From a virus: DNA of 23,434 bases. Made by a program: the position numbers and the translations under genes. The notes beneath the pieces were generated by a model. That model saw nothing but the letters and a program-made list of their open reading frames with translations. It had not been told where the DNA came from and did not search any database. This document shows, piece by piece, positions 3,243-23,434 of this stretch. How positions within the stretch are numbered: position 1 is the stretch's first letter; every line of letters starts with the position of its first letter. The stretch covers positions 1 to 23,434 of IMG/VR virus record IMGVR_UViG_3300049222_000008; one strand, 5' to 3'.

Positions 3243-3428
3243 ATGAGTACAGCGACACAGGCAACAGAAATTAAATTGTACAACGCAATGATTGAGAGCA
3301 ACCTTAGTGTAACTGAGGCAGTTGAAGCCATGAAAAGATACGCAAACGATAAAGAGTTTGAAGATGCACTTGACAGGGTGTACAAAAATGATACATTACT
3401 AACGGATGAATGGGACGTTTGGTCCTAA
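3243..3428 (+). CDS. Small hypothetical protein (61 aa)
   Basis: A 61-residue, mainly helical, acidic protein starting at an ATG 7 nt after the DUF3310 gene, with AAGGAG at 3227-3232. The first half reads as a helix-turn-helix-like pair (IKLYNAMIESNLSVTEAVEAMKRY), the second as an acidic helix. It could be a small regulator, but the motif is too short to claim DNA binding. The gene also contains a promoter-like sequence (3370-3397) that could drive the polymerase gene beginning 15 nt after its stop. I do not recognise the family. Confidence 0.6.
   Translation: MSTATQATEIKLYNAMIESNLSVTEAVEAMKRYANDKEFEDALDRVYKNDTLLTDEWDVWS
3370..3397 (+). promoter_or_regulatory. Candidate sigma70 promoter with extended -10, upstream of DNA polymerase gene
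   Basis: TTGACA at 3370-3375, a 16-nt spacer and TACATT at 3392-3397. The -10 is preceded by TGA, giving an extended -10 (TGn) element. Transcription would start near 3404, about 40 nt before the polymerase ATG. The -10 matches consensus at only four positions and the site lies inside the preceding small gene, so it may be chance. Confidence 0.35.
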
Positions 3429-3442
3429 CAGCAGGAGAATAT

Positions 3443-5491
3443 ATGAGACACCTAACACTTGACGTAGAAAACACAACGGTCAAACGCAATGGCAAGTTAC
3501 ACCTTGATCCGTTTGAGCCAGAGAATACGTTGGTGATGGTAGGTATGTTAGAGGACAACGGTGTAGAAACCATTGTCACATTTGATCATGCAGACCATGC
3601 ACCTACCCCCAATGGTCACCGCATTGTACAAGACGCACTAGACAATACGTCTTTGCTAATAGCACACAACGCACCACACGATCTGTTGTGGTTGTGGGAG
3701 TCAGGCTTTACCTATGATGGTAACGTATACGACACCATGCTTGGCGAGTACGTACTACAACGTGGACAGAAACAACCCCTGTCTCTTGAGGCTTGTGCAG
3801 AACGCTATGCTCTGGACACACAGAAGCAAGACACATTGAAGGAGTACTTTAAGAATGGATATTCCACACGTGATATTCCTCATGATGAACTATCGGAATA
3901 TTTATCGCACGATCTACATGCAACTCAACAGTTGTACATTACTTTGCAGACTAAGTACGAGGGATGCATCTCCTTAGTGCCAACCCTAGAGTTGACCAAC
4001 CAACTTGCCATACATCTTGCACGTATCTATCAACGTGGCTTCAAGGTTGACCTAGCTGCACTAGACGAAGTGCGTCAGGAGTTCGAGAGTGAACGCAACC
4101 TACTCAAGATCGCACTAGAGGAACAGGCCGCTGACTTGATGGGTGACAGACCTATCAACCTCAACAGCCCCGAGCAATTGTCTTGGGTTATCTACAGCCG
4201 CAAGCCACACGACAAGAAAGTATGGGCTGACTTGTTCGATGAACGTATGCCTGATGTAGAATACAAACGCACAGTCAACAGACACAGTGACAAGTTGTAC
4301 AAGCAGAAAGCACACCAGTGCAGTACATGTAACGGCAGTGGACAAATACGTAAACAAAAGAAGGATGGGACATTATATGCTCGAACAAATAGATGCAGCA
4401 ATTGCAACGCTACTGGATATATCTTTAGTGATATGGGTAATAACATTGCTGGCCTAAAGTTCACACCCCCTAACTCCAAGTGGGTTAGTGCTAACGGATT
4501 CGGTACAGGAAAGGACAACTTAATATTCTTGGAGGGCATCGCAAGATCACGTGGTATGAAAGAGGCAGAGACATTCCTACGTAATGTTCGTAGGCTCTCA
4601 GCCGTTGAGACATACCTCAGTAGTTTTGTTGAGGGTATCTCCAACCACATGAAGCCAGACGGTTTGTTGCATGTACGTTTGTTACAGCATCGTACAGGTA
4701 CAGGCCGACTATCCGGTGCAGACCCCAACATGCAGAACATGCCACGTGGCGGCACATTCCCCGTCAAGAAAGTGTTCGTGTCTCGCTGGGAGGGTGGCAA
4801 GATTATGGAAGCTGACTTCGCACAGCTTGAGTTCCGTGTCGCTGCGTTCCTGTCACAGGATATGACAGCCATTGACGAGGTAGTCACAGGCTTTGATGTA
4901 CACAGCTACACTGCACAGGTTATCACAGATGCAGGTCAGCCTATGTCACGTCAAGAAGCCAAGGCGCATACCTTCGCTCCTCTGTACGGCGCTAGTGGTT
5001 TCGGTAGATCAGAGGCAGAAGCGGCATACTACAAACAGTTTACGACAAAGTATTCCGGTGTATCTGACTGGCACAAGCGTCTTGCCACTGAGGCACTCAA
5101 CACAGGTACGATAACTACTCCATCAGGTAGGGAGTTCTCCTTTCCAGATGTAACACGTAGACGGTATGGGGGTGTGACATATTTCACACAGATTAAAAAT
5201 TATCCTGTACAATCGTTTGCAACGGCTGACATAGTACCAATATCTCTGATATACATTGATAAGCTATTGACAGCAAACAAGCTACGTAGTTGCGTAGTAA
5301 ACACGGTGCATGACTCAATTGTAATTGACGTACACCCAGATGAAGAGGACATGGTACTAAGAGTAATAGAAGCGGCTAATGACAAGCTGATACCTATCGT
5401 CAACAGAAAGTGGGGTATTGATTTCAACATACCACTTCTACTTGAGGCAAAGATTGGTCCTAATTGGCTTGACACAAAAGACGTAGCATGA
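3443..5491 (+). CDS. Family A DNA polymerase with 3'-5' exonuclease and DnaJ-like zinc insert
   Basis: This 682-residue protein is the replicative polymerase. The proofreading domain shows Exo I (D7, E9), Exo II (N76 to D80) and Exo III (Y153 to D157). Between it and the palm lie two DnaJ-type knuckles, CSTCNGSG (C293, C296) and CSNCNATG (C318, C321), an unusual zinc insert. Polymerase motif A is at 456-470 (D458), motif B has R503, K507, F511 and Y515, and motif C has H623-D624. F511 aligns with E. coli Pol I Phe762, a state usually linked to lytic phages. Start chosen at the ATG at 3443 behind GGAG (3434-3437); an in-frame start at 3410 overlaps the upstream gene. In general knowledge, a partial DnaJ-like central domain marks HMO-2011-type phages. 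No 5'-3' exonuclease domain is present. Confidence 0.95.
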   Translation: MRHLTLDVENTTVKRNGKLHLDPFEPENTLVMVGMLEDNGVETIVTFDHADHAPTPNGHRIVQDALDNTSLLIAHNAPHDLLWLWESGFTYDGNVYDTMLGEYVLQRGQKQPLSLEACAERYALDTQKQDTLKEYFKNGYSTRDIPHDELSEYLSHDLHATQQLYITLQTKYEGCISLVPTLELTNQLAIHLARIYQRGFKVDLAALDEVRQEFESERNLLKIALEEQAADLMGDRPINLNSPEQLSWVIYSRKPHDKKVWADLFDERMPDVEYKRTVNRHSDKLYKQKAHQCSTCNGSGQIRKQKKDGTLYARTNRCSNCNATGYIFSDMGNNIAGLKFTPPNSKWVSANGFGTGKDNLIFLEGIARSRGMKEAETFLRNVRRLSAVETYLSSFVEGISNHMKPDGLLHVRLLQHRTGTGRLSGADPNMQNMPRGGTFPVKKVFVSRWEGGKIMEADFAQLEFRVAAFLSQDMTAIDEVVTGFDVHSYTAQVITDAGQPMSRQEAKAHTFAPLYGASGFGRSEAEAAYYKQFTTKYSGVSDWHKRLATEALNTGTITTPSGREFSFPDVTRRRYGGVTYFTQIKNYPVQSFATADIVPISLIYIDKLLTANKLRSCVVNTVHDSIVIDVHPDEEDMVLRVIEAANDKLIPIVNRKWGIDFNIPLLLEAKIGPNWLDTKDVA

Positions 5492-11661: not shown

Positions 11662-14600
11662 TTACATTGCATCTTCCGCTAACTCTAGCAGCATCATTAT
11701 GTCCTCTACAGATCGGGGATCGGGACTTCTCCCATTATTTAGTTTCTTGAACATTATTTGGGCGTACTGCCTATCATCATAGGGAACACGAGATAGATCG
11801 TCAACTGCAGTAGCATAAGGCGAAGCAAAGCCATCCGTAAGAAAGTCCTGTTTAGCATCCGCTAACAAATCTTTAATGTACTTACGTGCAATTTTATTCT
11901 TTTCACTTTTATTACCGCCCATATCTTCTGCAATATCTTTTGATACTTCAGTAACAAGAGGTAGTATAGCAGATAGGTACTGGTTTTCTGCACGTTTTTC
12001 TGATGGTACTTTAGACCTACTGCCTAACTCGTATGTCGGGTCTTCAAAACCAATCTCCAAAAGATACTCTGTTAAATCGCTGTCTGCCTCTTTTATGTTT
12101 AAACCAAAAAACAGTTTCTTTAACGGATCGTACCTTTTTATATCACCAGTATTTATGGATACTCTATTTGGCATACTCTCTTCATAAGAAGGAGCCGCTA
12201 TGCCACGTTGAATAAGTGATCTACTAAAGCCACTACCAAAAGAGGTAGACCAGTCATCATTTAACGTAGGATCACTGGCGGCATCTACATACACGTCACT
12301 CTTTATACCTGCGGCACGTTGTGCTTCTACACCTTGGAACAGAGGAGTAAGGAAAGTGTTTACATACTGCCCAACGGCACCGCCAATAGCTTTAGCCCGT
12401 CTATTCTGGTCTACCATATCTTCCGTACCAACAATTATGTCACGGATTTCATCAATCATCACGTTGCCCACACCAGTACGTGCAGATGTACCTAGCCATG
12501 TTTCAGCTATATGATCCATGTCTGCGCCGTACCATGTATCAAGTGTACCTTCTTCCGCACGTCTTGCGAACTCTGCTACCCATCCAATCTGTCTCATAGG
12601 ATATACAGGCGTAAGATCAACTTGATTATCTTCGTATTCCATAGATTCATAACGCTCACCCGCATCATCAGATTTTCTGTACTGATACATACCAGTTATT
12701 GCCGCTATGCCTACAAGGTTACGTGTTATATCCTGCCTGTCTCTTGCCGTAAGAACGCCACGTGTATCCTTAAACATAGCCTTACGAGCAGCCATGATAC
12801 CCACACCGCCTACGTTCTGTGCCATGTACTCCATAGAGTTAAACATGAAGCGAGGGAACGGTACAATAACAGTAAGACCTGACTTAGTAATTGTATCAGA
12901 GATTACTTTAAAGGGATAGAAGTCTGGTTGCTTTGCGTATGTAACGTCTAATGCTTTTGTAGTAGCTTCATCCATAATATCTATGAAAGACCTACCGTTC
13001 TTACCACGCAAATCGGGTGCATCATTTATTACATCTTTGATGCGCCCTTCGTCTAGTGTTTTACGTAAATCTACACCCCACTCTGCGCTAGTCAACCTTT
13101 CCAACTCTGAAAAGAAAGTAGATCGACGTAGCATCATCTCTTGCCAACGGTTAGGTGTATTAAGAAACGCAACACCATCCTCAAGTGTAGAAGCCATTGC
13201 GTCTAAACCCTGACCAGCACGAGTAGTAGCCTGTCCTCTACCAGTTAACTCCTGTAGTTCTGCAATGTTACTACTAAGACGCTCAAACTGTTGGGCCAAC
13301 TCAGGTCTATCTAAAATATAATTTGTGTATTGCTCTGCAGTATTTTGGTCTGCAAACATATATTTCATTTGTCGGAAGGCATTTGAATAGGTTCCATCAC
13401 GAACAAATGGCATAACATTTTTAGTTGCGCCAACTATACCACCTATCCTGTCTCCTTCACTTGCAGCTTTAGCATAGGTAATAAGGGCAGTGTCAAATAC
13501 ATTTCCAAGCCCTTCCATAGGAGAACGAATGACGCCTGATTGAAGGTTTCGTGCAGCTGTAGCCAACGAAGATACCATCAAACCTCTGCGAATGTTTTCA
13601 GTTCGTAGCACCGTACTAGACCAGAACTTTGCAATACCTTTTTGTGAAGCACGATTGGCGAGTTCTGCCCTTCTCTCTGTCATTCCTTTAGGTTTAAACC
13701 TAGACATCTGGCTAACTCTATTTAGAAGTCTACCAGCTTCTGACACGGAACCTACTACGCCAAGCATGTAGTCTTCATACGACATGCCGTGCTTGTTCAG
13801 GATATTGTAAAGAGTATCGTCTGCAAGTAAATCTTTTGTAACGGTAAGATCAAACAGCTGATCTACTAGTGGTCTATCGGAACCAACTTTTAAAAGATCG
13901 GGATTGCTTTTGCGCAAGTCTGCAACAACACCAACTAATGCATCTAGCTTTTCTGGGTTAAGCATCGGGATAGCCAATACATCTTCATCATCAAAGCCCA
14001 ACTCATCTAGTGGGTTTATGTCACCGTCCGCAATCCTACCTTCATATACACCATCTACGTAGTAATCTTTTACTTTAGTCTTACCTGCGGCACGAACTTT
14101 AACAGGGTCAATAGTTAAACTACCATCTTTATTCTGTCTTGAAATGTCTACATCGGTACGGTTTTGAAAGTTTATTATTAGTTCATCTTTAATGTCGGCG
14201 TTAGCTTTAGCTTTTGCCTTATTAGTTTTACGTATTTGCTCACCAAGTTTACTTTCATTAAGCATTGCATCTTGTACACGGTTATACTCACCGCCACTAC
14301 CTACTTTTTTCCATACCTTAGTTACTCCTTTAGTAAGTAAAGCTGCTCCCGGTAAAGCTGACGCTGCATCTAGTCCCGCCCATGCCACATCAGCAGCGGC
14401 GGAACCGTACTCACCGTTAGCAACATGCTCCTGTACATTGGCAAAATGCTGTGGCACTTCAGCAACTGCCGTTAGAGGATTTAACATTTCGTCTGCGAAT
14501 ACTATAGCATTTACTTGCGGTAAATTTAACGTACCGTTTTCTGCAGCCTCAAGTAACTTAGAAGTAAGACCACTTGTAACAAAATTATTACTTTTTAGTC

Positions 14601-15177
14601 TGGCAAGCAAGGCATCTTTTTGTCCTTGTGCGCCTTCTATGTGGGTAAGTATGCGCTCTTTAACACGTTGATCTGCAGACAACATCAACTGTGACTCTGG
14701 ATCTTTACTCGCCATCTCTTCTTTTACAACAGACAAAGGTACGCCACGTGCGTCTGCCAAACCTTGTAAAAATTTATTTTCTTTTGCAATTTCTTTATTT
14801 GCTACGTTAAGTTGAGCATTATAGTAGTCTTCATTTACTACTTGTTCTCTGCGCATTTCAATATTATCATCAAACAATTTTGAAATCAGATCGTCTATCT
14901 GAGACATATCCTGTGTTATAATAGGCGTTTCATCTTGAGGTATAATAGGTTCTTCAACTGCAGGATCAATAGATAAATCAAAATCTTCTTCATCTGTTTC
15001 TATGTCATTAAACACAGGAACACCGCCCTCTTGCAAAGGCAGTGTGGGTTCCTGCGGAACATAGGTAGGTTCATCATCTATGTCATTGAATAAAGAATTA
15101 GAGTCTGTTTCTGTGGGTAATGTAGTTGTAGTATAGACTTCTTCTTCTTCAATGTCGTTAAACAGAGAGTTATCCAT
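11662..15177 (-). CDS. Very large virion protein, probable internal/ejected protein
   Basis: This 1171-residue protein is the largest in the window and ends the late arm. The first 100 residues are acidic, disordered-looking and contain three LFNDI-type motifs (residues 5-10, 29-34, 55-60). After that it is mostly helical with amphipathic or hydrophobic stretches, for example around AALLTKGVTK and NLVGIAAITGMY. Segments such as VSSLATAARNLQSGV and VIVPFPRFMFNSMEY resemble those I associate with giant internal or ejected proteins of marine phages. No lysozyme or transglycosylase catalytic motif is evident. Its ATG directly abuts the previous stop, with only a weak AGG upstream. A role in DNA ejection or as core protein is inference from size, position and composition. 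Confidence 0.75.
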   Translation of the reverse strand: MDNSLFNDIEEEEVYTTTTLPTETDSNSLFNDIDDEPTYVPQEPTLPLQEGGVPVFNDIETDEEDFDLSIDPAVEEPIIPQDETPIITQDMSQIDDLISKLFDDNIEMRREQVVNEDYYNAQLNVANKEIAKENKFLQGLADARGVPLSVVKEEMASKDPESQLMLSADQRVKERILTHIEGAQGQKDALLARLKSNNFVTSGLTSKLLEAAENGTLNLPQVNAIVFADEMLNPLTAVAEVPQHFANVQEHVANGEYGSAAADVAWAGLDAASALPGAALLTKGVTKVWKKVGSGGEYNRVQDAMLNESKLGEQIRKTNKAKAKANADIKDELIINFQNRTDVDISRQNKDGSLTIDPVKVRAAGKTKVKDYYVDGVYEGRIADGDINPLDELGFDDEDVLAIPMLNPEKLDALVGVVADLRKSNPDLLKVGSDRPLVDQLFDLTVTKDLLADDTLYNILNKHGMSYEDYMLGVVGSVSEAGRLLNRVSQMSRFKPKGMTERRAELANRASQKGIAKFWSSTVLRTENIRRGLMVSSLATAARNLQSGVIRSPMEGLGNVFDTALITYAKAASEGDRIGGIVGATKNVMPFVRDGTYSNAFRQMKYMFADQNTAEQYTNYILDRPELAQQFERLSSNIAELQELTGRGQATTRAGQGLDAMASTLEDGVAFLNTPNRWQEMMLRRSTFFSELERLTSAEWGVDLRKTLDEGRIKDVINDAPDLRGKNGRSFIDIMDEATTKALDVTYAKQPDFYPFKVISDTITKSGLTVIVPFPRFMFNSMEYMAQNVGGVGIMAARKAMFKDTRGVLTARDRQDITRNLVGIAAITGMYQYRKSDDAGERYESMEYEDNQVDLTPVYPMRQIGWVAEFARRAEEGTLDTWYGADMDHIAETWLGTSARTGVGNVMIDEIRDIIVGTEDMVDQNRRAKAIGGAVGQYVNTFLTPLFQGVEAQRAAGIKSDVYVDAASDPTLNDDWSTSFGSGFSRSLIQRGIAAPSYEESMPNRVSINTGDIKRYDPLKKLFFGLNIKEADSDLTEYLLEIGFEDPTYELGSRSKVPSEKRAENQYLSAILPLVTEVSKDIAEDMGGNKSEKNKIARKYIKDLLADAKQDFLTDGFASPYATAVDDLSRVPYDDRQYAQIMFKKLNNGRSPDPRSVEDIMMLLELAEDAM
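14998..15165 (-). repeat. Triple LFNDI[E/D] short linear motif at the N terminus of the large virion protein
   Basis: LFNDIE (residues 5-10), LFNDID (29-34) and VFNDIE (55-60) recur every 24-26 residues, each followed by an acidic run. A degenerate fourth (LFDDNIE) lies at 101-107. The intervening sequence is Pro/Thr/Glu-rich and not conserved, so the motif itself looks selected. Confidence 0.8.
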
Positions 15178-16392
15178 TTAGATTTTACCTGCATCAATAA
15201 AATTCTTATGCTTATCTGACGTGTACACTCCTGTATATACGTGTATCTTTGTTACAGGTATACCATCTTGTACTTCAGTAACATAAACAATGTCACCAAT
15301 CTTGTAGGCTCCTTGACTTGCACGTTGCTGTAGCACGTCCACTTGTTTACCGCTTTCATTTGTTGCGAAGCGTTCAAAGGGTTCATTTGGATTGACTCTA
15401 CGATCTGTTAATTGAGAAGTAGGTTCTATAGTGTGTTGATTACGTGCGTGTAATTGTATTTTCTTAACAGCGTTTTGAACATTACTTTTTGTCACTAAAT
15501 TTAACTGTGGAACCATGGGAGTATTGTCTTCACCCGTGTTAAGGGTACGAACATTTTTATTAGCCACAATAACTGCTACATTATACTCGGGTACTCTGTC
15601 TCCAATTTTTTGAGATAGTCTTCCTTCAAGGTCTACAGAAAAATCATTAGCCTCTAATGCTAATTTCATTTGAGTTTTTAACATACTTTCTATGGTAGAT
15701 TTACTAAAGGGGCTTGAGACAGCAGAGTCATCGTCTGTTTTTAGAGCGGCGTCTTTTGCTTTTATCTGCGTCAGTAACTCACTAGCCAATTTAGCTTGTT
15801 TATCTCTAATATCTGGAGTTTTACCATTGATAGATTTTTGGATAGCAATAGCATAAGCAGCATCTAACGTAGCCTGTTCTTTATCTGCAGGTTTCATGCT
15901 ACTAGTGTAGTAGTCTAAATTTAAAATACCACTTTTCGTAGGTGTAGCACTAGTCGAAGTCGCCTCCAAATCACCTGTCTCGGCTGCCGCTGTTGCAGTA
16001 CCTACACTGGGTGCTGCAGCAATGTCTGTAATTAACTCACTTGTTTCCGCCTCGGACATATTTTGCGAAGAAGAAAAGTTAAGTAGGGGTGCAGGAGAAA
16101 ATCCTTTAGATACAAGATCGCCACTCATGCGTAAGGTTTCTTGTGCCGCTCCTATACCTTTACCCATAATTTCTGAAGCCTGTTCAGGCGTAAAGTAAAG
16201 GCTAAGTTTACTCGTAAGCTCCTCTGCAATTTTCTTTTCCTGATCTCGTTGTGCTTGTTTAGCCAACCGTTGACGTGTAGCAATCTGACGATTTTCATCA
16301 ATCAGTTTTTCTGCACGTACACGATCTTCATCTAATCTTTCCGATAACTTGCCAGCAAAGCCAGCGCCAAATCCTGCTAAACTAAATGCCAT
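15178..16392 (-). CDS. Virion-associated protein, unknown function (404 aa)
   Basis: A 404-residue protein. Residues 1-17 are small and hydrophobic (AGFGAGFAG), then comes a long charged helix (about 18-65; KLSERLDEDRVRAEKLIDEN and following), typical of a coiled coil. The middle (about 110-160) is Ala/Thr/Ser-rich and linker-like. The C terminus has strand-rich sequence (KIGDIVYVTEVQDGIPVTKIHVYTG) like a small SH3-type beta barrel. I recognise no enzyme motif. Its place between four other late genes downstream of one strong promoter marks it as a likely structural or core protein. The start ATG overlaps the stop of the preceding gene by one base (TAATG). Confidence 0.65.
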   Translation of the reverse strand: MAFSLAGFGAGFAGKLSERLDEDRVRAEKLIDENRQIATRQRLAKQAQRDQEKKIAEELTSKLSLYFTPEQASEIMGKGIGAAQETLRMSGDLVSKGFSPAPLLNFSSSQNMSEAETSELITDIAAAPSVGTATAAAETGDLEATSTSATPTKSGILNLDYYTSSMKPADKEQATLDAAYAIAIQKSINGKTPDIRDKQAKLASELLTQIKAKDAALKTDDDSAVSSPFSKSTIESMLKTQMKLALEANDFSVDLEGRLSQKIGDRVPEYNVAVIVANKNVRTLNTGEDNTPMVPQLNLVTKSNVQNAVKKIQLHARNQHTIEPTSQLTDRRVNPNEPFERFATNESGKQVDVLQQRASQGAYKIGDIVYVTEVQDGIPVTKIHVYTGVYTSDKHKNFIDAGKI

Positions 16393-16898
16393 TATGATCT
16401 CCTCGCCATAAGACCACCCGGACGTGGTTCGGTTTCTTTTATTTCTACAGGCTCTTCTTCTTTTTCTTCAAGTGCCTCTGGTAATTCTTTGCGCATTTTC
16501 TTTAAGGCAAGTGCAATTTTAGTATCACTAATCTTATCTTCATCAATACGCTGTTCAGTACCAAGATCGTAATCAATACCTGCGTCATCGCCTATGTACG
16601 CCAACATCTCAACAATTACGGGTGTTACAAGAATACCTACATCAATTGTGTGCATACCCTGCATAACACCTGCAGACTGCATAGAGTTAGCCATAGTAGT
16701 TAGTGGTATACCTAATTCCATGCTATCCAGTAGTGAGTCATATATATCATCGGATACAAGACGTGGAATGTAGAACTCTAACGCAGACTCTACAGTAGTA
16801 TACTGAGGTGGGTTTTGCCAAGGTCTACTGCCGACTTCAGCAGTCATACCTTGACCGGGAATTGGGTAGTCTACATAAAGTTCTGATGGTTCAGCCAT
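16392..16898 (-). CDS. Hypothetical late protein (168 aa)
   Basis: A 168-residue acidic protein. The N-terminal 35 residues contain Pro/Gly/Tyr-rich segments (DYPIPGQGM, PWQNPPQY), then helices (ESALEFYIPRLV, DDIYDSLLDSMELG), and a hydrophobic stretch (IDVGILVTPVIVEMLAYIG, about 85-103) that could be a buried helix or weak membrane segment. The end is a Glu/Lys-rich tail finishing in PGGLMARRS. Interestingly the neighbouring 68-residue protein also has a SMGLLSRNS segment, so a GL[LM][AS]R[RN]S element occurs in both. The family is unknown to me. It overlaps the upstream gene by 8 nt and the downstream one by 1 nt, so it belongs to the late operon. Confidence 0.65.
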   Translation of the reverse strand: MAEPSELYVDYPIPGQGMTAEVGSRPWQNPPQYTTVESALEFYIPRLVSDDIYDSLLDSMELGIPLTTMANSMQSAGVMQGMHTIDVGILVTPVIVEMLAYIGDDAGIDYDLGTEQRIDEDKISDTKIALALKKMRKELPEALEEKEEEPVEIKETEPRPGGLMARRS

Positions 16899-17112: not shown

Positions 17113-19035
17113 TTAAAATATACCGCTTACAAAGTTAAGACCCTTACCCAACAGTGTATCACCACCCATAGGAGATGTAAACATTGTTGCTACAAGATTA
17201 CCCCAACTAGCAGAAGTTTTAAAGTCTAAGTCTGCTTCAGCCACAGATGCATTTGCGTCTATTGCCAACTTAGCTTGTGTTAAATCTGAAATACGTTGCC
17301 GCTCATTTTCGGCACTATTCCATGCCCACTCCATACTATCTTGGTAGTATGACCAAAGATCATTATAGGCAGTGTTAGATATACCAAGAATAGAGGCTGC
17401 GTTTAATTCGTTAGCACGGTTGATAGCTGCAGTATCTGCAGTTGCAATTTGTCTACGCCAGTTTGCATTGTTCTGATCAATAACTAATCTGTTCTGTGCG
17501 TTGAACTGGTCACGCTGGTTCATCATCTCAGATGCAAACCTATCTTGAGCATTGACTTGACCTGCATTGAACTGGTTCTGTGCATTAGCTTGTGAAGCAT
17601 TAAACTGTGATGCCTGTGTAGTTAGATTAGCAAAGAACTGATCAGTTTGATTTTGGCTCGTAGCATTAAACTGTGCAGCGGCGTTAGCGGCAGCTTGATC
17701 TGTAAACAAAGATTGTACTTGCTGTTGCGCTTTAAACATGCTAGTCTGTTGTTGATTGTTTAGATTAGCCATATCCATTTGTAAGAATGACTGTGCATTC
17801 ATTACGGCAGCTTGTTGACGATTGTTGAGGTTAGCCATGTCCATATTGGCTAATGCTGCAGCCTCGGACATTACAAGAGCTTGACGGTTATTTAGATTAG
17901 AAAGGTTTACCGTGTTAGCATTGCGGCTATTCTCCAAAGCTACTTGCTGCTCTGCAGTAAAGTTCATGTTAGCAATGTCGCTAATCTTACTTGCATTCAT
18001 TACACGAGATTGGAAAGCTTGATCAAACTCCATGCCCATAAATGTAGCACGTTGTTGCGCCGCAAGCATAGCACGTTGCTGACGGTTAGAAAGATTCTGT
18101 GACTCAAACTGTGCAAGTGTCTGTGCATCAGCTGAAGCAATTGGCAGTGCAGATTCCATAGCGGCTTGTATAATAGCCTGACCAGCCATAGAGGATGCAC
18201 CAAGGCCACGGGCCGACATAGTTGCAGTAGCTGCCCTCATTGCACCTGCAGCCCATGCTGGTGTATTACCACCCTCAAACTGCTGCATTAACCCTTCAAG
18301 CTGTCCTTGTACAGTAGCTTGTTTAGTAGGGGTAGCTTCTGCAGCTTGTAGTTCTTCAGTAAACTTAGCGGCAGTTTCAGCATTAGCTACACCGCTAACT
18401 AACTCACCTTCTTCTACCTTACGTTGTACAGGGTTTTCCATAAGAATGGCTTTGCCCTGTGCAGCTTCAAGATCGGACACACTAGAAGATGTAGCTTGCT
18501 CTGCATCTACAATAGCACGTGGATCAACGGAGCCTTGCGCTGCAGTAGTCTGTGCAATTACATCACCTACCTTGTCGGATACTTTTTCTGGTTCCATCAA
18601 GGTTGCATCAGTTGTAGTAGGTGCAGTGGCAGTGGCAGTAGTAGCTGTAGTAGTAGGTGTAATAATATCACCAGCTACCTGACCACTTGTAGGCGCTACA
18701 AATTGCTCTGGTGTAGCTACAGTACCTACAGGTTGAACTGTAGCACCGGGCAAAAGAGTAGGGGCTATAGCACGATTTGCTTGTAGTTCTGTAATGGAAG
18801 GAATAGTTAATGTAGTATCTTCCTCTTCATCTGTTACAGAACCACCTTCGGCATACTTTTTTACGTAACCACCACTTGCCATTTGCATAGCTTTCTGTTG
18901 ATACATATTCATAGTATTCATCTTGTCAGGGTTTTGATTCAAGTAGTTACTAAAACCATTCATGTCACCCTGATAGCCTAAGTTACCTGCAATACGCTGC
19001 AGGGCATCTGGTTTAAATCCTTTGAATTGCATCAT
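17113..19035 (-). CDS. Repeat-rich structural protein with hendecad helices (640 aa)
   Basis: A 640-residue Ala/Gln/Asn-rich protein, first gene after the late promoter. Residues 52-66 contain ASGGYVKKYAEGGS, a Gly/Lys element I have seen in phage virion proteins. Residues 120-190 are Thr/Ala-rich linker. From about 315 to 430 an LxNRQ-like element recurs every 22 residues (315, 381, 403, 425 clearest), and from 455 to 513 QFNA-like elements recur every 11 residues (455, 466, 477, 488, 499, 510). This suggests a long right-handed helical rod, as in internal core or tail-needle type proteins. The C terminus is compact and Gly-rich (LLGKGLNFVSGIF). The start may be either ATG of the ATGATG at 19,035; the purine-rich AGAAGA upstream fits the second at 19,032 slightly better. 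Confidence 0.75.
   Translation of the reverse strand: MMQFKGFKPDALQRIAGNLGYQGDMNGFSNYLNQNPDKMNTMNMYQQKAMQMASGGYVKKYAEGGSVTDEEEDTTLTIPSITELQANRAIAPTLLPGATVQPVGTVATPEQFVAPTSGQVAGDIITPTTTATTATATAPTTTDATLMEPEKVSDKVGDVIAQTTAAQGSVDPRAIVDAEQATSSSVSDLEAAQGKAILMENPVQRKVEEGELVSGVANAETAAKFTEELQAAEATPTKQATVQGQLEGLMQQFEGGNTPAWAAGAMRAATATMSARGLGASSMAGQAIIQAAMESALPIASADAQTLAQFESQNLSNRQQRAMLAAQQRATFMGMEFDQAFQSRVMNASKISDIANMNFTAEQQVALENSRNANTVNLSNLNNRQALVMSEAAALANMDMANLNNRQQAAVMNAQSFLQMDMANLNNQQQTSMFKAQQQVQSLFTDQAAANAAAQFNATSQNQTDQFFANLTTQASQFNASQANAQNQFNAGQVNAQDRFASEMMNQRDQFNAQNRLVIDQNNANWRRQIATADTAAINRANELNAASILGISNTAYNDLWSYYQDSMEWAWNSAENERQRISDLTQAKLAIDANASVAEADLDFKTSASWGNLVATMFTSPMGGDTLLGKGLNFVSGIF
17497..17673 (-). 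repeat. Hendecad (11-residue) QFNA repeat within the 640-aa protein
   Basis: QFNA, QFFA, QFNA, QFNA, RFAS and QFNA begin at residues 455, 466, 477, 488, 499 and 510, exactly 11 residues apart. An 11-residue period is the hendecad repeat, compatible with a nearly straight or right-handed coiled coil. Confidence 0.85.
17743..18093 (-). repeat. 22-residue (double hendecad) repeat within the 640-aa protein
   Basis: LSNRQQ (315), FTAEQQ (359), LNNRQA (381), LNNRQQ (403) and LNNQQQ (425) are spaced by 22 residues or a multiple of it; the copy at 337 is degenerate. The last three copies include repeated MDMAN before LNN. 22 is twice the 11-residue period found further on. Confidence 0.8.
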
Positions 19036-19118: not shown

Positions 19119-19538
19119 CTACTTTAGAGGATTAGCGACTAATTCATCATACGCATCCCATATATCGTCTATCTCTACTGCGTATGTATCCATCTTATCG
19201 GACATGCTATCCGTAATAGCTGTGCTCTTTTCAACTTGAGAGCGTAGGTTTAGTAGGGTTCTTTGTTGCTCTAAAATTGTAGCCATTTGAGTGCTAATCT
19301 GTGTTAGCTTAACACCTAGTTGCGCTACATTATTATCACCAATTGTTTGTTCAAGAGATTGAATACGTGATGTAGCATCTACTACTTCTTCAAACCCTGA
19401 CTCAACGTCTAAGAAACGATTCAGTACATCGTAGCCCCAGTATGCACCGCCAGCTACGGCACTAAGAATAGGTAGTGCAAATAAGGCATGTGCAGCCTTA
19501 AACGAGTAACCACCTACTTTTAGTTCTGCATCACCCAT
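19119..19538 (-). CDS. Membrane-anchored coiled-coil protein (139 aa)
   Basis: A 139-residue protein with a single hydrophobic segment at about 15-36 (AHALFALPILSAVAGGAYWGY) and a long coiled-coil C terminus (about 45-130; for example IQSLEQTIGDN and QMATILEQQRTLLNLRSQ). There is no cleavable signal. The Gly-Tyr-Ser-Phe start KVGGYSFKAAH reminds me of membrane proteins in marine podophage late regions with no known function. It is the last gene before the late promoter, overlapping the previous secreted-protein gene by 8 nt. A holin-like, spanin-like or tail-tube membrane role is possible; the extended coiled coil argues against a simple holin. Confidence 0.65.
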   Translation of the reverse strand: MGDAELKVGGYSFKAAHALFALPILSAVAGGAYWGYDVLNRFLDVESGFEEVVDATSRIQSLEQTIGDNNVAQLGVKLTQISTQMATILEQQRTLLNLRSQVEKSTAITDSMSDKMDTYAVEIDDIWDAYDELVANPLK

Positions 19539-20292
19539 TGTAGTTAATAGCCTCGTAGATTTCTTGCGCTGTTTTAGTATTGCCCGTCATGTAGCCATGA
19601 AATGAAATGTAAGCGTTAGACTGCTCAAATGAAATCATTAACTTATCTACACTTTGTACGTAACTAACTGCAGTGTAAGATGCCATAGCAATGTTATTCT
19701 GTGAAGCAAAGCTATCTATCTGATTTGTGATGCTGGTATTTTCTGATGCCGCAAGATACGCACCTGCCTGTTGAGCAAAAGTTTGTACGTCAGTAATAGC
19801 ATCATTAAAATTATCTACGTCTTGCTGATCAATAGACATATCAGTTATAGTAACAGCCTGTTGCACTTCCATCATGTCATCTGTAGTAGTTGCAGATTCA
19901 GCCATATCTGCTACAGCGGATACAGTTTGTAATACTGATGTAGCTTCTACCAGATTATCAATTGCAGTGTGCATATTATCTATAGCAGTATCATGCTGCT
20001 CCGCAAGAATATCTGATGCAGTCAAATAACTTGCATTACGTACATTAGATAGCGCATCATTGTAAGCTGATACCATCTGTTCATTAATAAAAGCTGCGTT
20101 TGCTGTACCATCCTCTACAATGAAACCCGTATGGGCATTCATATCAATTTCCCAAGCTAAGTTATTTGCCAGCTGTAGCTGTAGTTCTATCACCTGTGCC
20201 GCTGTGTGAAGATCGCTCATTGTTGTTTCTGCGAAGGCTACTTCTGAACTGATCGCTAATGGAACGGCTAGGAGCATTTTGTGTAGGCGCAT
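19531..20292 (-). CDS. Secreted protein with Sec signal peptide, unknown function (253 aa)
   Basis: A 253-residue protein with a clear signal peptide: basic MRLHK, hydrophobic MLLAVPLAISSEV and a likely cut after AFA (residue 21). The mature part is acidic, helical and Ala/Asp/Thr-rich, with no cysteine, so it should be exported to the periplasm or beyond. The ATG at 20,292 is chosen because GGAAGGAAG lies 7 nt upstream (20,300-20,308); the TTG at 20,310 would put six residues before the signal and precedes that site. Its first 131 nt overlap the end of the previous gene in a different frame. Sec-exported phage proteins of this size are unusual; it could block superinfection, act in envelope disruption or be a virion-surface protein. 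Confidence 0.7.
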   Translation of the reverse strand: MRLHKMLLAVPLAISSEVAFAETTMSDLHTAAQVIELQLQLANNLAWEIDMNAHTGFIVEDGTANAAFINEQMVSAYNDALSNVRNASYLTASDILAEQHDTAIDNMHTAIDNLVEATSVLQTVSAVADMAESATTTDDMMEVQQAVTITDMSIDQQDVDNFNDAITDVQTFAQQAGAYLAASENTSITNQIDSFASQNNIAMASYTAVSYVQSVDKLMISFEQSNAYISFHGYMTGNTKTAQEIYEAINYNG

Positions 20293-20896
20293 CTGGTATC
20301 TTCCTTCCAATGTATAGTAAGTTATTCCAAAATGATTTATTTTGATTGTAGCCTACAATGTAGACCTTTGGTTTACTACGCATCTTCATATATGCGTCAC
20401 GTCCAATTAACAGTTTACCTGTAGAGACATCTACAATTGGACAAGGTGTGTTAGCTAACGCCATAGCTTTAAACACATTTGGGTTAGAGCACATTATACT
20501 TATGCCACTTACTTGTAGACCTAAGCCACCTACCTGTTGAGGTGCTCCAATTAATCTAGCATCTTTACGCCTGTTACATTCAGGGTCTTGTTGCATTTCA
20601 CCACGAGATACACCGATTATACTAATCTGCACACCTTGTGAGCTAGGTATAAGGCAGCTATCGTTACCACCGCCACCCATCATTGTAGGTGATATTGCAC
20701 TTGGTACTGGTTGTGAACCGGGACTTGAACCCGCTCCATTATAGTTAGTTGTACTGCTTGCGTTGTTACTATCTACACTGTTATTGTCGCCCATGTTAGT
20801 GTTAAGATCACCATTCGTAGAACCGTCACCAACATTGTCTTGAGCTACTGCATTACTTGCAGACAGTAGAGTAAGTATTACAAGCCATTTCCACAT
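20162..20896 (-). CDS. Secreted cysteine-containing protein, unknown function (244 aa)
   Basis: A 244-residue protein with a Sec signal peptide (MWKWLVILTLLSASNAVAQ, likely cut after VAQ or AVA). Residues 20-78 are a low-complexity Asn/Ser/Gly/Asp linker. The central domain (80-195) has four cysteines (C81, C107, C136, C152) that could form two disulfides in the periplasm, and strand-rich segments (VQISIIGVSRG, KPKVYIVGYNQ). The final 43 residues are basic and low-complexity and coincide with the region shared with the downstream gene's start, so they look shaped by the other frame. GGAAG precedes the ATG. It overlaps the upstream lipoprotein gene by 19 nt. I do not recognise the family. Confidence 0.7.
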   Translation of the reverse strand: MWKWLVILTLLSASNAVAQDNVGDGSTNGDLNTNMGDNNSVDSNNASSTTNYNGAGSSPGSQPVPSAISPTMMGGGGNDSCLIPSSQGVQISIIGVSRGEMQQDPECNRRKDARLIGAPQQVGGLGLQVSGISIMCSNPNVFKAMALANTPCPIVDVSTGKLLIGRDAYMKMRSKPKVYIVGYNQNKSFWNNLLYIGRKIPDAPTQNAPSRSISDQFRSSLRRNNNERSSHSGTGDRTTATAGK

Positions 20897-21861: not shown

Positions 21862-23434
21862 TTAACATGCCATCAGCACACATGGCACACAGTAGGAGCC
21901 ATCATCGTATGTGCATGTGACATGGGTTGAAGTAACTTTTGCGATTGTCTTGCTGCGAACAATGTCATCGCCCTGTGGTTTGGCTGTGCCATCACCCGCC
22001 GACATAAGCAGATCGCCACGCTGCACGGTTGTGCCTTGCGCAATGCGGATAATCATATCGCCTGTCATAGCGACATTCATGTCAGCCGTATAGGTTTCAT
22101 CACCATCATCCCAATTAACAAAAACACCCGCAACATTCGGATCACCTTCAACAGACGATACTGCCATGCAGTTGAGCTGCTCATTATCTTCATCACCCCA
22201 CACAGCCATTTGATCCAAGTTGGTCATAACTGTACCTTTAAGAAGATCAATTCGGGTGTTTTCAGCAGTTTGCGACCAACGTGCAAGGTGTCCACCGTTA
22301 TAAGAAACAGTTGTACCAGATACAGATATACTACCCTCAACAGAGCCTTGAGCATAAAAAATTACTAACCCACCATCGTTTGTTAGCCTGTGAACAAACA
22401 ACGGATCATTGCCATCTCTAACCGCCTCAATAGCACCATCTACCCGCATTCTTGCGCCAGCAGTATTAAAGTCAGTCGTAAACTTATTTACATACCAGTT
22501 CCCAGAAGAATCAAATCTACCCCTAGGATTACCATCACCATCCGACAGCACGATGTTGTTGCTTGAGGTGCGGATGTTTAAGCCGCCTTGGTTGCCATCG
22601 TAGCGGCCTAGGATGGTGTTTTTTGCACCAGAAGATACAAGGTTGCCAGAGCTTTCGCCTATGAAAGTGTTAGCATGGCCCGTGGTATTGTTGCGCCCAC
22701 AGTAATACCCAAGAAAAGTGTTTTGCGCAGACGTTGATGTATAGCCAGCTTGTGCGCCCAGATAGACACTTTGAACCGCAGTAGTATTACTATACCCAGC
22801 CTGATACCCAACGGCAGTGTTGTTGTTGGCGGTGGTGTTGGAGTACAACGCCTGACGTCCTATCGCCACGTTATATGCGCCTGTCGTGTTGCTATATAGA
22901 GGACGATACGCACCTACCGCTGTATTACTTTCACCTGTCGTTGTGCTATAACCCGCTTCACGACCAACAAATAATTGCGGCCCTGTGTCATTGTTATAAC
23001 CTGCTTGATACCCAATCGCTGTCACTCCTGCGGCATTAGCATCGCTTTGAGTGAATGCGGCCTGATACCCAACCGCTGTGTTGTTGGAAGCGGTGGTGTT
23101 GGTTTCTAAAGCAGATCGACCAATAGCTACGTTATTTCCACCAGTAGTGTTTGAGTACAATGCAGCACTACCAAAAGCATTGTTCTTTGTACCCGATGTA
23201 TTTGAGTACAAAGCACTAGAGCCAACAGCAGTGTTTTCCGCACCAGTAGTATGGTAAGCAGCCTGATACCCAACTGCCGTACTGTTATTTGAAGTGGTGT
23301 TATTGCGTAAGGCATCACGACCTACAGCTACATTTTGTACACCAGTAGTATTACTATACCCTGCCTGATACCCCACGGCAGTGTTGTTGGATGCGGTGGT
23401 GTTGGTTTCTAAAGCAGATCGACCAATAGCTACG
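21862..23434 (-). CDS. Tail fibre with YadA-head-like repeats, 5' partial
   Basis: The frame is open to the right edge, so the N terminus is missing; about 523 residues are visible. The first part consists of roughly 17 copies of a 16-17-residue unit (pattern T-A-V-G-x-x-A-x-x-x-N-T-T-G-x-x-N), as in YadA/trimeric adhesin heads, a left-handed trimeric beta-roll that makes a rigid shaft. After LNIRTSSNNIVLSDGDGN comes a globular C-terminal part with KGTVMTNLDQ, QRGDLLMSAGDGTA and a Cys-containing end (CVPCVLMAC). That end resembles terminal domains of marine phage fibres related to autoproteolytic chaperone-type (Peptidase_G2-like) domains; I hold this with moderate confidence. It should bind the host surface. 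The GTG at 23,376 is an internal valine, not the start. Confidence 0.88.
   Translation of the reverse strand, partial: VAIGRSALETNTTASNNTAVGYQAGYSNTTGVQNVAVGRDALRNNTTSNNSTAVGYQAAYHTTGAENTAVGSSALYSNTSGTKNNAFGSAALYSNTTGGNNVAIGRSALETNTTASNNTAVGYQAAFTQSDANAAGVTAIGYQAGYNNDTGPQLFVGREAGYSTTTGESNTAVGAYRPLYSNTTGAYNVAIGRQALYSNTTANNNTAVGYQAGYSNTTAVQSVYLGAQAGYTSTSAQNTFLGYYCGRNNTTGHANTFIGESSGNLVSSGAKNTILGRYDGNQGGLNIRTSSNNIVLSDGDGNPRGRFDSSGNWYVNKFTTDFNTAGARMRVDGAIEAVRDGNDPLFVHRLTNDGGLVIFYAQGSVEGSISVSGTTVSYNGGHLARWSQTAENTRIDLLKGTVMTNLDQMAVWGDEDNEQLNCMAVSSVEGDPNVAGVFVNWDDGDETYTADMNVAMTGDMIIRIAQGTTVQRGDLLMSAGDGTAKPQGDDIVRSKTIAKVTSTHVTCTYDDGSYCVPCVLMAC
23090..23131 (-). repeat. Long exact DNA repeat in tail fibre, copy 1
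   Basis: These 42 nt are identical to 23,393-23,434, 303 bp away (101 codons), and similarity continues for about a dozen bases on the left with one or two mismatches. It encodes VAIGRSALETNTTASNN in both. The second copy touches the window edge, so the identity may extend beyond it. Confidence 0.85.
23393..23434 (-). repeat. Long exact DNA repeat in tail fibre, copy 2 (reaches window edge)
   Basis: Identical in 42 of 42 nt to 23,090-23,131; its right boundary lies outside the window. Confidence 0.85.

Follow-up and report, generated by a model that had tools for sequence, protein, structure and literature searches.

A repeated motif replaced between lineages in the N-terminal tail of a predicted ejection protein of HMO-2011-type marine podoviruses

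Introduction

Why should a large phage protein carry the same short motif several times at its very start, and what might the copies bind? The question is raised by the window analysed here, a stretch of 23,434 nucleotides of viral DNA (IMG/VR record IMGVR_UViG_3300049222_000008), in which a six-residue motif occurs three times near the N terminus of a long late protein, here called E. Judged by sequence and gene order, E belongs to the HMO-2011-type marine podoviruses, a group reported as dominant and widespread in the ocean (PMC9038755, consulted in part). No account of the ejection apparatus of these phages was found in the portions of the literature examined. The motif is not mentioned in the sections of PMC9038755 and PMC6918029 covered, which is not proof of its being unpublished. 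Here the copies are followed through the family, the causes that could keep them alike are weighed, and the late proteins are compared as possible partners.

Results

Three motif copies in a disordered tail

The features of E in the window are as follows.

11662..15177, minus strand: gene E, 1171 amino acids, candidate internal virion (ejection) protein, mostly helical; orthologue of HMO-2011 gp22, CRP-1 gp31 and CRP-345 gp40
14911..15177, minus strand: disordered acidic N-terminal tail of E, residues 1-89, bearing the three copies (AlphaFold pLDDT <50)
15148..15165, minus strand: motif copy 1, LFNDIE, E residues 5-10, followed by EEE; kept as LF[NDGS]DI in close relatives
15076..15093, minus strand: motif copy 2, LFNDID, E residues 29-34, followed by DE
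14998..15015, minus strand: motif copy 3, VFNDIE, E residues 55-60, followed by TDEED
14857..14877, minus strand: LFDDNIE, E residues 101-107, supposed fourth copy, rejected; inside predicted helix 91-114

The copies start at residues 5, 29 and 55, as the original prediction had it, and its coordinates were right. It had counted LFNDI three times; what occurs three times is FNDI (residues 6-9, 30-33 and 56-59), since the third copy begins with valine and not leucine. Shuffling residues 2-89 of E gave not even two FNDI in any of 200,000 trials, and a four-residue word of any kind occurred three times in 18 of 20,000. The pattern [LVIMF]F[NDSG]D[ILVM][EDK] had no further match in the 7,730 amino acids of the non-overlapping open reading frames of the window. 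At the DNA level LFNDI is written CTG TTT AAC GAC ATT in copy 1 and TTA TTC AAT GAC ATA in copy 2, a difference at four of the five codon positions. Identity to the window over five close relatives is 77% in the six-residue cores, 63% in the remainder of residues 2-68 and 71% in residues 69-85, so that the spacers, first described as unconserved, are not simply so, though the cores are higher.

The AlphaFold model of E, built with 70 sequences (mean pLDDT 70.8, pTM 0.57), is a mostly helical protein from residue 91 onwards. Residues 1-89 are unstructured and undocked with a pLDDT of about 26-37, and the predicted disorder of the N terminus was borne out in this sense, disorder here being low AlphaFold pLDDT. 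A degenerate fourth copy had been proposed near residue 101 (KLFDDNIE, residues 100-107); it lies in the predicted helix 91-114, beyond the disordered tail, and was rejected.

Gene order and the probable identity of E and D

Orthologues of E were found by tblastn in CRP-1, CRP-345 and HMO-2011 (four records, two of them HMO-2011), and CRP-2 has a distant one. By tblastn and annotated synteny the late genes run collinear with those of HMO-2011, CRP-1 and CRP-345, and both the late-gene order A-B-C-D-E and the replication genes are as in these three phages. In the DNA polymerase of the window (3410-5491), where the motifs of a DnaJ domain were checked by reading them from the sequence, CSTCNGSG fits and CSNCNATG departs at one position. 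The order A-B-C-D-E upstream of E recurs in relatives with enough flank, where A has about 620-1330 residues, B about 65-83, C about 160-184 and D about 340-570; among the 82 homologues described below, those with sufficient flank yielded D in 72 cases, C in 69, B in 65 and A in 53. The genes next to E in the window are these.

15178..16392, minus strand: gene D, 404 amino acids, at the gp15 position directly upstream of E (synteny); candidate partner of the motif, tracking E and the motif
15181..15924, minus strand: C-terminal folded module of D, residues 157-404 (helical 159-321, beta 330-404), from AlphaFold and matrix regression
16392-16898, minus strand: protein C, 168 amino acids
16891-17097, minus strand: protein B, 68 amino acids

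In T7 a gp14-like gene adjoins gp15, which is followed by the larger gp16 (PMC8954989, consulted in part). E is likewise the large last gene of its ejection operon, downstream of the gene in the gp15 position. A fold search of E against BFVD matched internal virion proteins of the Synechococcus phages S-RIP1 (E-value 2.7e-7) and S-CBP2 (5.3e-6), and the fold also matches proteins annotated as ‘large polyvalent protein associated domain’. From operon order and fold we infer that E is the gp16-position ejection protein and D the gp15-position one; that E is a virion protein is a prediction from the same gene position and fold. The term ‘mass spectrometry’ does not occur in the portion of PMC6918029 covered.

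Neither D nor E has a sequence match to T7 gp15 or gp16 in the PDB, where the best sequence match of E was an unrelated designed bundle (E-value 0.42). The models of E and D found no fold match in the PDB at an E-value of 0.001, and the best VIA-align Z scores, 4.9 for E and 7.4 for D (to a designed helical repeat), both fall in the uninformative range. The five window proteins A to E have no match in PHROG (E-value 0.001) or Pfam (E-value 0.1); weak PHROG matches of unknown function were obtained for two D homologues and for the E of CRP-2. Among 16 stretches of genome contigs that match two peptide patterns there was no prophage relative.

Several other features of the late region were observed. 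Protein C ends in an acidic tail with a GLMARR-type motif, found in 64 of 64 relatives as G[LI]MxR among the final 30 residues, and a GL[LM]xR-like motif is present in protein B in 59 of 61. By sequence this looks like one conserved docking motif common to two small late proteins, the opposite of the lineage-specific motif of E; GLMARR, GLMSRR and GLLSRN were not found in the literature searched. Protein A (640 amino acids, 17113-19035, minus strand) has NLNNRQQA-like repeats in its second half. A tail-fibre-like reading frame, open at the window end (21862-23433, minus strand), has many GYQAGY..NTTG repeats and matches PHROG families of virion structural and tail spike proteins. Two late reading frames at 20162-20896 and 19531-20310 (minus strand), in different frames, overlap by up to 149 bases depending on the true start of the second.

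The repeat is a trait of the family

Homologues were collected from eight viral scans, three of which gave the best 80 of 247, 114 and 395 relatives, together with the named phages. The 204 full-length E frames, among which the same contig may recur, reduced to 109 unique sequences and to 82 after dereplication at 90%, a set made up of homologues of at least 1000 residues lying whole within their contigs; the window's protein is represented in it by a relative of 97% identity. Residues 1-25 of each protein were compared with residues 26-90 against shuffles, other segments of the same proteins serving as controls. The repeat was significant in 53 of the 82 at p <= 0.05 and in 43 at p <= 0.01, compared with 27 and 6 of 328 control segments. 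An earlier set gave a similar picture, with a significant repeat in 50 of 74 dereplicated homologues (one truncated frame, L164, having been dropped from 75) against 4-9 of 73-74 for each internal control segment. In the 53 proteins copy 1 starts at a median of residue 3 and the spacing has a median of 33 residues (interquartile range 30-37).

The test was not significant in 29 of the 82, and in several of these copies can be seen by eye, as in CRP-345 (FLNFLNA/FLDFLNS) and L288 (DYFAFDTPL/DYFSFSTPL). No convincing copies were seen by eye in CRP-2, L043, L159, L229 and L285. In L285, a homologue of 1155 residues, the usual tail is replaced by an EPVVIDK-like heptapeptide repeated about five times in tandem, which may be an alternative solution or have expanded recently.

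The motif changes between lineages and the copies change together

The motif itself differs from lineage to lineage, with FNDIEEE, NPFFSRE, LNFLNA, SLKDKLKARR and VRIGSRH as examples. Within one protein the copies agree: NPFFSRE/NPFLTRE in the CRP-1 type, AEEMLQFIQG/ANEMLQFIQG in L133, LLDRKRKLMG/LLERKRQLMG/LLERKKALMN in L150, SLREQLKLKR/SLKDKLRARR/SLKDRLKARR in L116 and VRIGSRHQED/VRIGSRHDDD in L114. The comparison was made over 50 proteins, CRP-2 and homologues with a repeat p >0.05 having been dropped. Mean copy similarity was 37.5 within a protein and 14.9 between proteins of 45-55% core identity, and the within-protein score exceeded that of every protein of <60% core identity in 45 of 50 cases; being that of the best self-match, the within-protein score overestimates the agreement. 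Random drift of the repeats, which the original prediction had set against a docking motif, is not what is seen: the motif drifts between lineages, and the copies drift together.

A functionless, recent tandem duplication of the disordered segment would also leave similar copies, and a few lineages do look recently duplicated: seven or eight of the identical residues share their codon in L120 (8 of 9), L116 (7 of 9) and L114 (7 of 8), and in L026 two stretches of 20 residues, compared at the protein level, are identical. Across the 50 copy pairs, however, 381 of 728 aligned residues are identical, while the identical residues with degenerate codons share their codon in 182 of 367 cases, close to the 167.1 expected from codon usage alone. 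Since residues are kept and codon sharing is near random, selection on the protein, and not recent duplication, holds most copies alike. Codon divergence thus rules out recent DNA duplication as the general cause, though it is likely in a few lineages, and as an explanation of the repeats it is highly improbable. In most lineages, then, the copies parted long ago as DNA and are kept alike by a common constraint.

At least two copies in a disordered region, kept by selection on the protein, are what a multivalent short linear motif consists of. That part of the original prediction is well supported, by recurrence across the family, by synonymous divergence between copies and by their matching within proteins; each copy would then bind one partner site.

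Protein D as a candidate partner

Among A to D, D is the most variable (mean identity 23%), and its pairwise identity follows that of the E core most closely (r 0.67; A 0.30, B 0.29, C 0.34). In a matrix regression over 50 genomes the one term with a contribution of its own to motif similarity was D 200-404 (beta 0.56, permutation p 0.001), and when D was split by structure residues 157-325 and 326-404 each had an effect (beta 0.27 and 0.32, p 0.002 each); the tests of D reuse overlapping data, with p values uncorrected for the number of analyses. In the later covariation sets homologues with a repeat p >0.1 were dropped. The partial correlation with the motif is about 0 over D residues 1-165 and 0.12-0.19 from residue 176 on, and it is 0.02 for E residues 90-129, the nearest downstream DNA tested. 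As the AlphaFold model of D runs from a long helix (12-66) through a disordered linker to a confidently predicted module (157-404), the signal coincides with a structural unit.

Other results run against D. The spacers between copies, used as a control, were also associated with these two D segments, though less strongly than the motif was (beta 0.15, p 0.022 for D 157-325; beta 0.17, p 0.002 for D 326-404), so that part of the D signal is linkage. For pairs <70% identical over E 500-960 no D term was significant for the motif, the only such term being E 1000-1171 (p 0.048). The first whole-gene partial Mantel test of D was negative (p 0.42, n=45 genomes), and the D window signal was at first barely above threshold (0.143 vs 0.134) and was then seen in a larger set. 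Windows of E itself exceeded the permutation threshold of the scan (p 0.016), and E 250-289 (0.17) and E 370-409 (0.16) have partial correlations like those of D. In near-complete genomes, a set in which D is comparable in only five, the correlation with the motif was 0.73 for E, 0.67 for C (n=13) and 0.61 for a variable HMO-2011 protein of 762 residues (n=12). Proteins A, B and C were rejected as partners, showing no covariation beyond E in 36-52 genomes, in spite of the value for C in the 13 near-complete ones. D is therefore a candidate partner, supported statistically and confounded by linkage; because the linkage, distant-pair, E-segment and other-protein results run against it, its sequence covariation leaves it at slightly less than an even chance.

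Discussion

Taken as a whole, the N terminus of E may be a multivalent docking tail, with the C-terminal module of D as its most likely partner, an explanation that we hold tentatively and put just short of evenly balanced. Two or three copies, about 33 residues apart on a disordered acidic chain, would each engage a site of one kind, and a single E chain could thereby hold together several subunits of a ring-forming partner, most likely D; with this spacing the chain could reach neighbouring D subunits. This would take place during core assembly in the head, or at the stage when the proteins, once ejected, reassemble into a channel through the host envelope, or both. The partner site and the motif would change together along each lineage: many equal sites on D would constrain the copies, and when the site changes all copies must follow. 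Binding, the stitching of a ring and the stage of action are each put forward here as parts of a model.

Docking of the tail on E itself, on neighbouring subunits or on its own C-terminal region, would make the motifs multivalent latches for self-assembly. The permutation scan of E agrees with this, as does E 1000-1171, the best of the E segments (raw r 0.51; beta 0.24, p 0.034 with the mean-score measure) and the one term to persist in distant pairs. Over all pairs, however, the D terms are stronger, and AlphaFold leaves the tail undocked at very low confidence; we regard self-docking as rather unlikely. The original prediction had allowed for a docking or packaging signal directed to a capsid, portal or core partner. 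Placement of E in the head through portal, capsid or scaffold would follow the general logic of internal virion proteins, and portal identity does correlate with motif similarity (r 0.59, 11 genomes). Yet the head proteins correlate with the motif less well (0.45-0.59) than E itself does, and portal, capsid, scaffold and TerL have mean identities of 81, 77, 68 and 86% over 11-13 genomes (11 for portal, 13 for capsid) in which the motifs are mostly unrelated. Such proteins seem too conserved to be likely partners of a motif that changes beyond recognition, and a head-protein partner is distinctly unlikely; of the partners named, the core is favoured over capsid and portal. Nor did a packaging tag shared with other proteins appear: none of the 13 genomes scanned had another protein that matched the lineage motif better than did the proteins of other genomes, in a scan that missed reading frames crossing the edge of a 20-kb piece, HMO-2011's own E among them.

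A host factor, such as a chaperone, a translocon or an envelope protein, might instead be bound, lineage specificity then mirroring host range. Ejection proteins act in the host envelope (PMC8954989, consulted in part), and fast lineage-specific turnover would fit the tracking of hosts; motif similarity follows the relatedness of E and D, however, and we consider a host partner very unlikely. Returning to D as the partner, the E tail and the D module might further be a diversifying lock-and-key pair, a code by which the ejection proteins of one lineage recognise each other; this is an unlikely extension of the model. Were it true, each virion core in a cell co-infected by several related phages would assemble solely from its own D and E, and one multivalent tail would both stitch the ejection channel and tell self from non-self.

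Multivalent motifs and gp15-gp16 contacts are already known kinds of interaction. The literature consulted, which includes the portions covered of PMC9038755, PMC6918029 and PMC8954989, yielded no description of an internal phage protein in which the docking motif is exchanged from lineage to lineage and the number, position and spacing of its copies stay the same. If the proposal is right, E offers a phage protein-interaction interface in which the sequence turns over at constant valency and spacing. The repeats point to one particular contact that can be tested, that of the E tail with the candidate D module, and the natural variants supply many lineage-specific pairs of peptide and partner for comparing cognate with non-cognate binding.

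One of the closest parallels is T7, in which residues 157-228 of gp16, the ‘molecular tape’, cement the gp15 interfaces of the ejectosome and stabilise the hexamer (PMC8954989, consulted in part). As predicted for E, gp16 is a large internal protein whose gene directly follows the one in the gp15 position, and an extended segment stitches the subunits of the neighbouring protein, which for the E tail is proposed by analogy. The tape lies behind a transglycosylase domain in the same description, whereas the E tail is the extreme N terminus and has two or three motif copies, and D and E are without sequence homology to the T7 pair in the PDB.

In the cyanopodoviruses S-RIP1 and S-CBP2 the predicted fold of the internal virion proteins is similar over much of E, and in S-RIP1 a smaller ‘internal virion protein’ gene lies just upstream, as D does before E. 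Unlike E, the S-RIP1 protein has by eye no repeated disordered tail at its start, and no repeat was seen by eye in the proteins of S-RIP1 and P12053L.

Scaffolds built on multivalent short linear motifs, such as CsoS2 with its repeats that bind Rubisco, resemble E in repeating a short motif along a disordered chain to gain avidity. In those scaffolds the motif is conserved across the family, whereas in E the motif sequence turns over between lineages and it is the architecture of the copies that stays.
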